Shown: piece by piece, positions 5,401 through 43,684 of the stretch
Layout of the letters: each line of letters starts with the position of its first letter
Position numbering within the stretch: the stretch's first letter is position 1
NCBI GenBank assembly: GCA_903921205.1
Contig: CAIXPF010000168.1
Span: 1-48,273 of the forward strand
Direction: 5' to 3'
Source of the DNA: an uncultured Acidimicrobiia bacterium
GTDB taxonomy: Bacteria > Actinomycetota > Acidimicrobiia > Acidimicrobiales > CAIXPF01
Length of the DNA: 48,273 nucleotides
Translations under genes and position numbers: made by a program
Notes under the pieces: model-generated
Databases searched by the model: none
What the model saw: the letters and a program-made list of their open reading frames with translations, nothing else
What the model was told of the DNA's origin: nothing

Positions 5401-5880
5401 ATGGCCGGCAGCGACGCACGATCACTCCCCCGCACCCGGTGGGTACGGATCGGCACGGTGGTCGTGCTGGCCGGGTTGTCGCTGGCGGCCTGCGGCCGCA
5501 AGGCCGAGGAATCGCTGCCGGCGCCGGCCACGCTCACGGTGCTGCCCGCACCGGACGCACCCCCCGAGCCCGCCGCAGCCCGGCCGATGCCCCCCACCAC
5601 CCGCGTGCCGGTCACCACCACCTCATTGCCCAACTCGGTCACCTACACCGTGCAGGACGGCGACACCTTCTTCGGCATCGCCGACAAGTTCGGGATCACC
5701 CCGCAGCTGCTCGCCGGGCTCAACCCGCTCAAGGACCCTGGCCGGCTGGTGGTGGGCCAACTGCTGATCGTCCCCGGCCCGGCACCGGTACCCGGCAGCC
5801 CCGACGGGTCGGCCACCGCCACGACCACCGGCACCACTGTGACGGTTTCCACGTTGCCCTCCGCGACCAAGAACGGATGA
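5401..5880 (+). CDS. LysM-domain lipoprotein
   Basis: The N-terminus (RTRWVRIGTVVVLAGLSLAACG) is a lipoprotein signal with lipobox LAAC, followed by a Pro/Thr-rich spacer. One LysM domain follows: VTYTVQDGDTFFGIADKFGI, then TPQLLAGLNPLKDPGRLVVGQ and LLIVPG. LysM binds N-acetylglucosamine in peptidoglycan, so this is probably a membrane-anchored, wall-binding protein; no catalytic domain is present. The tail is a low-complexity Ala/Thr stretch. It ends in a TGA overlapping an ATG of the next frame, but the phosphatase gene downstream probably starts at 5901. Confidence 0.8.
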   Translation: MAGSDARSLPRTRWVRIGTVVVLAGLSLAACGRKAEESLPAPATLTVLPAPDAPPEPAAARPMPPTTRVPVTTTSLPNSVTYTVQDGDTFFGIADKFGITPQLLAGLNPLKDPGRLVVGQLLIVPGPAPVPGSPDGSATATTTGTTVTVSTLPSATKNG

Positions 5881-8772: not shown

Positions 8773-9291
8773 ATGCCGAGACCAATCGAACGAGCACTGG
8801 GACCGGTCGCGGCATTCCTGCTCCTCGTCGGTTGTGGCGCGAGCCGGCGACCCGACGACCGCGCTGCGGAGGAGTCCGCGCCTGCCGCCACCATCAGCGC
8901 TGCGGTCGAGGCCACCGGCCGCCCCGCCTCGCCGGGGATCGGCCTGGCCGACGAGCTGCTCGTCCTGATGAACCGGACGCGCGCCGAGGCGGGCCTGCCC
9001 CCGCTCGGTGCGGACGGGCGCCTGTTCAGCTCGGCCGATCGCCAGGCGTCGTCGATGGCCACCGCCGGTGCGCTGTTCCACCAACCGCTCGGCGACGAGC
9101 TCGACCTCGGCTGGTCCCGGGTGGGTGAGAACGTCGGCTTCGGACCCAACGCCCCGGCGATCCACCGGGCGCTCGTTGCCAGCCCCGGCCACTACGCCAA
9201 CCTCGTCAACAACCACTACGACCGCGTCGGCATCGCGGTCCGAACGGACGCAACCGGCCGCCTGTGGGTGGCCCAGGTCTTCGGCGGCTGA
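8773..9291 (+). CDS. CAP/SCP-domain lipoprotein
   Basis: The signal region ERALGPVAAFLLLVGCG ends in a lipobox (LVGC), so the 172-residue protein should be lipid-anchored outside the membrane. The rest is a CAP (SCP/Tpx-1/Ag5/PR-1) domain: LLVLMNRTRAEAGLPPL, AGALFHQPLG, VGENVGFGPN, VASPGHYANLVNNHYDRVGI and LWVAQVFGG. It keeps the metal-binding-type His residues (FHQP, PGHY) and Glu of GEN. Bacterial CAP proteins (YkwD type) are of uncertain biochemical function. An AGGTG four bases before the ATG acts as a weak Shine-Dalgarno. Confidence 0.85.
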   Translation: MPRPIERALGPVAAFLLLVGCGASRRPDDRAAEESAPAATISAAVEATGRPASPGIGLADELLVLMNRTRAEAGLPPLGADGRLFSSADRQASSMATAGALFHQPLGDELDLGWSRVGENVGFGPNAPAIHRALVASPGHYANLVNNHYDRVGIAVRTDATGRLWVAQVFGG

Positions 9292-37838: not shown

Positions 37839-39338
37839 ATGATCCGGGCCGTTCGGGCAGTTCGGGCCGTGTCGGCCGGTGCAGCGATCGCCTTCGCCAT
37901 GCCGCCGTGGGGATGGTGGCCGCTGGCCGTCGTCGGCCTGGCGTTGCTGCCGGGCCTCTTCGACGGGACCGACCGGCGGGGCCGCTTCTGGTGGGGCTGG
38001 GTCGTCGGTCTGGCCTGGCTGGTGCCCTCGACGGTGTGGGTCGTGGACTTCTCGATCCCCGGCTATCTGGTGACCGCCGGACTGCTGTCCTCCTTCATCG
38101 GGCTCGCTGCCGCCGCCCTGCCCGACGACCGCCGGACCTCCTATCTGGCGATTCCGGCGGTGCTGACGCTGGCCGAGTTCGCCCGCACCACGGTGCCCTT
38201 CGGCGGGGTGCCCCTCTCGACGCTGGCGATGAGCCAGGTGGCCTCACCCGTCGGCATGGTGGCGCGGGTCGGCGGCACCGTGGTCCTGACCCTGGCCACC
38301 GTCGCCCTCGGCATGGCCGTGGCTGCGGCTGCGGCGCGCCATTGGCGCCCCGCCCTCATTGCCGCCGCCGGCGTCCTCGCACTGGTCGCCCTGGCCCAGG
38401 TGGCCCCGAGCGGCGAGGACATCGGGCCGTTGGAGGTCGCGGTCGTGCAGGGCGGCGGACCGCAACGCACCCGCGCGGTCGACTCCGACGCCGACGCGGT
38501 GTTCGAACGCCACCTCGCCGCCTCGGCGGACATCGAGCTGCCGGTCGAGTTGGTCCTTTGGCCGGAGAACGTGGTCAGCGTGTCCGGCTCCCTGACCGGC
38601 AGCGACGAGGAGGATGCGTTGATCGGGTTGGCCGAGCGGGTCGGGGCCCCCGTCGTGCCGGGCATCGTCGAGTCCTTCCCCGGCGAGTTCTTCAACGCCT
38701 CGGTGGTGATCACCCCCGACGGGCGGACGGTCAGCCGCTACGACAAGGTCCGGCGCGTGCCCTTCGGCGAGTACGTGCCGCTGCGTGGCGCCATGGACCT
38801 GCTCTCCGGCGGGGCCGTCTCGCGCTACGTGCCGAGCGATGCGGTGCCCGGCACCGGACCGGCCGTAGTCGACACCCCGAACGGCACGATGGGCGTGGTC
38901 ATCTCGTGGGAGGTGTTCTTCGAGCGCCGGGCCCGTGACGCCATCAGCCACGGGGGCGAGGTCCTGATGAACCCGACGAACGGCTCGAGCTACTGGCTGA
39001 CCATCGTGCAGTCCCAACAGGTCGCGTCGTCACGGTTGCGGGCGCTCGAGACCGGCCGCTGGGTGCTTCAGGCGGCGCCGACCGGCTTCTCGGCCATCGT
39101 GTCGCCCGACGGCGCGGTCCAGCAACGCTCCGCCATCAGCGAGGCCGCGGTACTGCAGCAGACCATCCAGCGGCGCACCGGGCTGACCTGGTCGGTCCGG
39201 TTCGGCCCGTGGCCAGGACTGTTCGCCTGTGCGCTGTTGCTGCTCGCCGCCCACCTCCTGACCCGCCGTCGGCCCGCAGCAACGACCGACCCAGCCGCCG
39301 CTGCCGCCTCCGTCGGTGACCCGACCCCGGACCGGTGA
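37839..39338 (+). CDS. lnt: Apolipoprotein N-acyltransferase family protein (nucleophile position is Ser)
   Basis: A 499-residue protein with N-terminal membrane helices (GAAIAFAMPPWGWWPLAVVG onward), a periplasmic nitrilase domain, and a last helix (PGLFACALLLLAAHLL). The order and spacing match Lnt, which N-acylates lipoproteins after Lgt and LspA. Of the Glu-Lys-Cys triad, Glu243 (LVLWPENV) and Lys303 (YDKVRRVPFGEY) are present. The nucleophile position, 53 residues after the Lys as expected, reads VVISWEVFFERRARD: Ser356 (TCG at 38904-38906) where family members have Cys. The rest of the active-site region (LMNPTNGSSYW, RALETGRWVLQAAPTG) is well kept. Activity is therefore uncertain. Leaderless start. 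Confidence 0.87.
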   Translation: MIRAVRAVRAVSAGAAIAFAMPPWGWWPLAVVGLALLPGLFDGTDRRGRFWWGWVVGLAWLVPSTVWVVDFSIPGYLVTAGLLSSFIGLAAAALPDDRRTSYLAIPAVLTLAEFARTTVPFGGVPLSTLAMSQVASPVGMVARVGGTVVLTLATVALGMAVAAAAARHWRPALIAAAGVLALVALAQVAPSGEDIGPLEVAVVQGGGPQRTRAVDSDADAVFERHLAASADIELPVELVLWPENVVSVSGSLTGSDEEDALIGLAERVGAPVVPGIVESFPGEFFNASVVITPDGRTVSRYDKVRRVPFGEYVPLRGAMDLLSGGAVSRYVPSDAVPGTGPAVVDTPNGTMGVVISWEVFFERRARDAISHGGEVLMNPTNGSSYWLTIVQSQQVASSRLRALETGRWVLQAAPTGFSAIVSPDGAVQQRSAISEAAVLQQTIQRRTGLTWSVRFGPWPGLFACALLLLAAHLLTRRRPAATTDPAAAAASVGDPTPDR

Positions 39339-43144: not shown

Positions 43145-43684
43145 ATGCCTCGTCGTCGTCTGCTCGTGCTCGCCACCCCGCTGCTCGTCGCCGGGCTGCT
43201 CGCCGGGGCCTGCGGCGGATCCACCGACGGGGCCGACGCCCCCGCCACGACCGTCCCCATCCCCGTCCCCAGCACGACCGGCGCCGGCACCGCCGCAGCA
43301 GCGGGCGACCCGTTCTGTCAGAAGGTCACCGAAGCCGGTGAGAAGTTCGGGATGGACCTCTCCGTCGCCAACCTCGGCGCAGCGCTGCAGCAACTTCCGG
43401 AGGCGGCTGCACTGCTCGGTCAGGCGCAGGCCGTCGCCCCGCCCGAGATCAAAGCCGATCTCACGGTGCTGGCCGGCACGCTCGAGGAGCTCACCCCGCT
43501 GCTGAGCAGGATCGCCACGCTGAACGCCGCGGCCAAGACCGACGCCGCTGCCGCCACCGAGGCGCAGAAGGCCACGCTGGAGCTGATGGGCCGCCTGACC
43601 TCGACCCAGTCGAGCGGGTTCGCCACTGCGGTCGCCAACCTCAACGCCTACAGCAAGCAGCACTGCGGCGTGAAGTTCGTCTGA
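43145..43684 (+). CDS. Predicted lipoprotein, helical, unknown function
   Basis: A 179-residue protein with signal MPRRRLLVLATPLLVAGLLA followed by lipobox AGAC and a Thr/Pro spacer. The mature part is almost all helix (LGAALQQLPEAAALLGQAQA, DLTVLAGTLEELTPLLSRIA, TEAQKATLELMGRLTST) and has two Cys (FCQKV and KQHCGVKF) that could form a disulphide joining its ends. It should be anchored on the outer membrane face. No family is recognised; four-helix solute-sensing or chaperone-like proteins have similar layouts. Monocistronic with leaderless start, convergent with the next methyltransferase. Confidence 0.72.
   Translation: MPRRRLLVLATPLLVAGLLAGACGGSTDGADAPATTVPIPVPSTTGAGTAAAAGDPFCQKVTEAGEKFGMDLSVANLGAALQQLPEAAALLGQAQAVAPPEIKADLTVLAGTLEELTPLLSRIATLNAAAKTDAAAATEAQKATLELMGRLTSTQSSGFATAVANLNAYSKQHCGVKFV

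Follow-up and report, generated by a model that had tools for sequence, protein, structure and literature searches.

The last fatty acid of bacterial lipoproteins is added by apolipoprotein N-acyltransferase (Lnt), which normally needs an active-site Cys, and the nitrilase superfamily is defined by a Glu-Lys-Cys triad. For Escherichia coli Lnt, whose nucleophile is Cys387, the roles of Glu267, Lys335, Glu343 and Glu389 have been set out (PMC5500890), and Ser411 has been located close to the Cys sulphur (PMC5500888). In the experiments described in PMC6828757, the C387S mutant of this enzyme forms an oxygen-ester acyl intermediate without transfer to apolipoprotein, and it serves there as a dead control for Lnt; elsewhere the E. 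coli Ser mutant is termed 'low activity' (PMC10313180).

The published precedent for a natural Ser-type Lnt is mycobacterial, since BCG_2279c of Mycobacterium bovis BCG and Rv2262c/Rv2261c of M. tuberculosis are reported to carry Ser at the position of Cys387 (Brulle et al. 2013, PMC3850990). In that report BCG_2279c was unable to replace the Cys enzyme BCG_2070c for four lipoproteins, and its authors favour a contributive role for it without excluding a role under other conditions. The same report describes Lnt2 of Streptomyces scabies, also a second copy and also unable to compensate for the loss of the main enzyme, which differs in keeping the essential residue missing in BCG_2279c. Searches of an open-access library turned up no report of an Acidimicrobiia Lnt of the Ser type.

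An Lnt-family gene with Ser at the catalytic Cys position

We analyzed a window of 48,273 nucleotides, the whole stretch of DNA presented here, which carries the following features of an Lnt-family gene:

37839-39338, + strand: Lnt-family gene, 499 amino acids, with Ser at the catalytic Cys position (TIGR00546, 198.4 bits; AlphaFold model matching 8b0p)
37875-38315, + strand: membrane domain LNT_N, residues 13-159 (Pfam PF20154, 70.7 bits)
38436-39176, + strand: nitrilase-like domain CN_hydrolase, residues 200-446 (Pfam PF00795, 85.8 bits)
38565-38567, + strand: Glu243, equivalent by alignment of E. coli Glu267, the general base (Glu in 206/206 distinct Ser sequences)
38745-38747, + strand: Lys303, equivalent by alignment of E. 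coli Lys335 (Lys in 206/206 distinct Ser sequences)
38769-38771, + strand: Glu311, equivalent by alignment of E. coli Glu343 (Glu in 205/206 Ser sequences, X in one)
38904-38906, + strand: Ser356 (codon TCG), at the position of the E. coli nucleophile Cys387 by codon reading and alignment (Ser in 133/137 sequences of the order)
38910-38912, + strand: Glu358, equivalent by alignment of E. coli Glu389 (Glu in 206/206 distinct Ser sequences)

Direct reading of the sequence gives an ATG start and 499 residues, and the score of the product against the NCBIfam model TIGR00546 (lnt) lies above the cut-off of 132.9 bits. The membrane and nitrilase-like domains stand in the Lnt arrangement, both by Pfam and in an AlphaFold model for which the window protein was aligned with 41 named relatives (pLDDT 88.0, pTM 0.89). 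This model matches E. coli Lnt 8b0p with Z 39.5 and rmsd 2.8 over 468 residues, at about 24% identity when structurally aligned, and the C387S entries 8b0m and 5vrh with Z 39.1 and 38.6, respectively; Foldseek likewise matches it to E. coli Lnt. The active-site loop 306-313 of the model has a pLDDT below 50.

The motif around Ser356 reads VVISWEVFF, and residues 243, 303 and 356 are E, K and S. When solved structures were searched with phmmer, this motif was paired with AISYEI of the E. coli C387S entry 5vrh and with AICYEI of 5vrg, so position 356 is the equivalent of Cys387. The original prediction of an Lnt homologue with Ser at the catalytic Cys position and with Glu243 and Lys303 intact is thus borne out by the TIGR00546 score and the alignments. 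The window protein shares with E. coli Lnt (TIGR00546; 5vrg, 8b0p) the full-length fold, the equivalents of Glu267, Lys335, Glu343 and Glu389 and an HMM score above the cut-off, but has Ser for Cys387 and Trp357 for Tyr388, a position that is W in 104, F in 60 and Y in 42 of the 206 distinct Ser sequences counted below. Ser411 of E. coli corresponds to Thr380 in the phmmer alignment, in which the Trp237 equivalent falls in a poorly aligned stretch. Ser at the nucleophile position is also found in 5vrh and 8b0m; there, however, it was placed by design in a laboratory mutant for which PMC6828757 describes a transfer that is not completed, whereas the Ser of the window type is natural and conserved. 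Judged by its sequence, the window protein is a full-length homologue of Lnt; it belongs to Lnt by sequence family and fold and does not by the defining catalytic Cys, so that Ser-type Lnt variant is the most fitting name for it.

We also checked whether the catalytic Cys has been displaced to another position. The sole Cys of the window protein is Cys464, and when 120 Ser sequences from the order were aligned, Cys was conserved in none of the columns (18/120 at the highest); all five columns with Cys in at least 10% of these sequences lie within the first 94 residues. A displaced catalytic Cys is therefore rejected. Gln204, Val307, Pro308, Gly310, Pro314 and Arg316 are invariant in the Ser sequences of the order (115 rows, duplicates included). 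A compensating substitution common to all Ser clades was not found. The nearest to one, and a weak one, is Phe at 361, which is present in at least 82% of each of the four Ser groups outside family f88 and in 57% of the Cys types.

Distribution and history of Ser and Cys

The genome search covered one phylum, Actinomycetota. The initial searches used the window protein, with the peptide ISWEVFFE among the patterns of one search, which biases the sampling; searches with the TIGR00546 model gave the same picture of Ser and Cys. Where sequences agreed fully across residues 200-429, they entered the counts as a single distinct sequence. Loci that were too short or partial (L088, L107, L273, L277 and L303), one that looks like a soluble type (L093) and a gene below the cut-off (L090/L119, one gene of genome G055) were left out of the counts. 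The search with the window protein and peptide gave 51 loci, of which 46 have Ser and four have Cys (L084-L087), while L088 ends before the position. The four Cys loci are 30-34% identical to the window protein and carry record titles of other actinomycetes; the titles of the Ser loci are mostly Acidimicrobiia, Acidimicrobiales or Acidimicrobiaceae.

The final set comprises 318 distinct Lnt sequences, in which Ser occurs 206 times and Cys 112 times. In the order of the window, Acidimicrobiales by named records, 133 of 137 have Ser and four have Cys; in the second, sister order of the class, the numbers are 55 of 57 and two (L309 and L311, which keep the other active-site residues). Only part of the order-level matches to the window protein were taken as sequences (30 as loci first, others added); the last 20 sequences added were all Ser, before which the counts stood at 120/124 for the order, 50/52 for the second order and 188 Ser sequences. 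Ser is also found in all 13 sequences of f66, another family of the phylum, although the two sequences of f98 and the six of f101, families of the same class, carry Cys. In addition, f96 has one Ser, f103 two Ser and four Cys, and f88 two Ser and five Cys; f62, another lineage of the window's class, has one Cys (locus L243), and all remaining sampled families have Cys.

The close relatives of the window protein carry Ser at position 356: congeners at 89% (L010/L039), 77-78% (L011/L040) and 70% (L012/L041) identity. This is the opposite of the Cys in all close relatives that the original prediction had named as contrary evidence. That prediction had also allowed for an error in which TGC was read as TCG. 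The one point in favor of an error in sequencing or assembly is that swapping two bases of TGC yields TCG; against it, Ser occupies the position in nearly the whole order, and every one of the six Ser codons is used for it there (in an earlier subset of 103 distinct Ser sequences, 92 have TCN and 11 AGY). Such an error is refuted by this conservation, and we attach a negligible probability to it.

To follow the history of the exchange, the main tree was built from 94 chosen rows and 519 columns, the nucleophile column being included as one of the 519. The fewest Ser/Cys changes on it are six, and the starred branches force at least six (bootstrap 5-95% range 6-6). Ser occupies four separate places: the order of the window (100/100), the second order together with f96/f103 (99/92), f66 (100/100) and f88 (100/99). 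Within the Ser rows of the window's order there are nested Cys rows, and likewise within those of the second order with f96/f103. A quick earlier tree of 106 rows gave five changes, three of them forced, and a tree of 40 rows, with f88 left out, gave five changes with four forced. Since the main tree is unrooted, it does not by itself separate gains from losses. AU tests on the 40 rows rejected neither a single Ser clade uniting both orders and f96/f103 (p 0.177) nor a placement of L309/L311 outside the Ser clade of the second order (p 0.074); several origins of Ser within the class and a reversal in L309/L311 are therefore likely rather than proven.

Some individual records deserve mention. 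The fourth Cys sequence of the window's order (L146, genome G065) is nested in the Ser clade and has an odd active site, with Glu at Lys303 and Asp at Glu358. In G055, a genome of the same order, the sole Lnt-like match (L090/L119) fails to reach the cut-off, at 85.7 and 38.4 bits, and has Cys in an ICYD motif. Loci L073, L089 and L040 are titled Bifidobacterium breve or Ferrithrix thermotolerans, yet their gene order matches that of Acidimicrobiia MAGs; the Bifidobacterium labels, at least, look wrong.

Selection, gene order and copy number

Compared with its two closest relatives, L039 and L040, the lnt gene of the window shows dN/dS values of 0.18 and 0.19; comparison with L041 and L042, which are further removed, gives higher values of 0.36 and 0.51. 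Against L039 and L040, the values for hemE, dtd and the glycosyltransferase gene are 0.09-0.12, and those for the sortase gene 0.41 and 0.29. The lnt gene is thus under purifying selection, its dN/dS being well under 1, though less so than hemE, dtd and the glycosyltransferase gene. Its neighbors encode URO-D, a sortase, a D-Tyr-tRNA deacylase, a glycosyltransferase and a methyltransferase. Among the loci of the order, some of them partial, hemE flanks 38/42, the glycosyltransferase gene 38/42 and dtd 21/42. Six neighbors were sought at three Cys actinomycete loci, and none was present there. The neighboring genes give no pointer to a special substrate or another acceptor.

The genome of the window has a completeness of 100 and a contamination of 2.2. 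The second lnt gene for which the original prediction had proposed to look was not found over the TIGR00546 cut-off in this genome, its one other match scoring 39.6 bits against 132.9. Four other nitrilase-fold matches have Cys at the motif (ICWEN, ICHDG, ICYDS and ICEDV), and a fifth, cut off by the end of its contig, does not include the nucleophile position. The two CN_hydrolase pieces at the edges of contigs C17 and C144 may, by a reading of their letters, be parts of a glutamine-dependent NAD synthetase. Among 32 genomes of the order with an Lnt match over the cut-off, 28 have a single one, G151 has two with Ser, and G109, G073 and G020 have one with Cys and one with Ser. On the best reading, a genome with a Ser-type Lnt usually carries no other Lnt. 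This sets the window gene apart from BCG_2279c and Rv2262c-Rv2261c, which resemble it as natural Cys387-to-Ser homologues of Lnt; BCG_2279c, as described in PMC3850990, is a second copy that accompanies a functional Cys Lnt, whereas the genome of the window has no Lnt over the cut-off apart from the window gene. Two Ser-type genes are found in G518 (L351 and L358, adjacent on contig C7) as well as in G151 (L148 and L379).

Lgt and LspA are present in 43/43 genomes of the order, the window's own included, which were hand-picked to cover genomes with Ser, with two copies and without Lnt. A match to the window protein was found in 256/298 genomes of the order. None of the 42 genomes without such a match, several of them incomplete, has an Lnt over the cut-off, and Lnt therefore appears dispensable in the order. 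Well-assembled examples with Lgt and LspA and no Lnt over the cut-off include G032 (a single contig, completeness 99), G082, G117 and G148 of family f33, together with others; the lipoproteins of such genomes are therefore presumably diacylated only, or N-acylated by something else. The original prediction had counted at least four lipoproteins in the window. A crude lipobox regular expression does not confirm this count, giving one doubtful candidate and three believable ones, the motif of each of the three following a hydrophobic stretch:

5401-5880 of the window: candidate lipoprotein, LAAC
8773-9291 of the window: candidate lipoprotein, LVGC
43145-43684 of the window: candidate lipoprotein, AGAC

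Possible activity of the Ser-type Lnt

From its sequence, the window protein is likely to work like an Lnt, and we consider it fairly probable that the gene encodes a working enzyme with Ser instead of Cys as the nucleophile. A working enzyme is favored because a dead one would be expected to lose some of Glu243, Lys303, Glu311 and Glu358. Also in its favor are the prevalence of Ser in both orders and in f66, the lack of a displaced Cys, the single Lnt over the cut-off in the window's genome, the Lgt and LspA of the order, the match of the model to E. coli Lnt, and the oxygen ester and 'low activity' described for E. coli C387S (PMC6828757 and PMC10313180, respectively). We infer the catalytic steps, the ester intermediate and the acceptor from E. 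coli Lnt, on which they are modelled. Glu243 would deprotonate Ser356, and a membrane phospholipid would donate an acyl chain to Ser356, forming an oxygen ester, with Lys303 aiding in the oxyanion hole. The chain would then be transferred to the alpha-amine of the lipoprotein's diacylglyceryl-cysteine, giving a triacylated lipoprotein.

The chief weakness of this reading is that both experimental Ser cases fail, E. coli C387S at the second step and BCG_2279c in the cell. Other points against it are the lack of a compensating substitution common to the Ser clades, the dispensability of Lnt in the order, the three genomes in which a Cys copy accompanies the Ser copy, the weaker constraint than on neighboring genes and the low pLDDT of loop 306-313. 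The original prediction had offered a Ser-type or an inactive Lnt; the former is supported, and inactivity is unlikely because the Glu/Lys/Glu/Glu set is retained (in 205 of 206 Ser sequences), dN/dS is well under 1, gene order is conserved, and Ser and Cys interchange on the tree. A non-catalytic homologue that binds lipoproteins or lipids, as has been suggested for BCG_2279c and Streptomyces Lnt2, would accord with the contributive role favored in PMC3850990 after BCG_2279c failed to replace BCG_2070c and with the uncompleted reaction of C387S described in PMC6828757. We regard such a pseudoenzyme as rather improbable here, since Glu243 and Lys303 are kept in every Ser sequence and the published case accompanies a Cys enzyme, while the Ser copy in these genomes usually stands alone.

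Alternatively, the Ser enzyme may be catalytic in a different reaction, in which the oxyester passes its acyl chain to a hydroxyl group, another lipid or water, so that the Lnt scaffold would serve as an O-acyltransferase or phospholipase. The kept catalytic residues would suit this as well, as would the C387S oxyester, which in PMC6828757 forms and never reaches apolipoprotein, and the three f21 genomes that have a Cys Lnt of their own in addition to the Ser enzyme fit a division of labor. However, the fold and family score match Lnt, 28 of the 32 genomes have a single Lnt over the cut-off, no alternative acceptor is named by the gene neighbors, and the nesting of Cys sequences in Ser clades suggests one shared reaction. 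This alternative is unlikely, although it deserves slightly more weight than the pseudoenzyme.

Returning to a working Ser-type Lnt, its wider form holds that, in Acidimicrobiia and in one or more further families of the phylum, a fully active Ser enzyme is the normal and usually the only lipoprotein N-acyltransferase, with multiple origins and reversions and with Ser and Cys interchangeable; we give this an even chance. If true, Ser and Cys would be interchangeable nucleophiles in a nitrilase-superfamily enzyme. A large lineage living with Ser would mean that the triad also works with Ser, through an oxyester and presumably without sensitivity to thiol reagents, or else that the scaffold has taken on another job, and either outcome bears on whether Acidimicrobiia make triacylated lipoproteins. 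A TIGR00546 match by itself hides the difference between Ser and Cys.

The two Ser sequences of f88 (L189 and L236) are presumed counterparts of BCG_2279c; they use the Ser codon AGC and form a separate clade nested with Cys sequences in another part of the 94-row tree. Of the four sequences with Cys in the window's order, three (L120-L122, family f21) are second copies with scores of 240-258 bits, which group on the same tree with two-copy f83/f78 and f88 Ser sequences. The Ser copies of the same genomes are L278, L359 and L279, and these f21 genomes, with a Cys Lnt and the Ser Lnt of the order, offer a natural side-by-side comparison.
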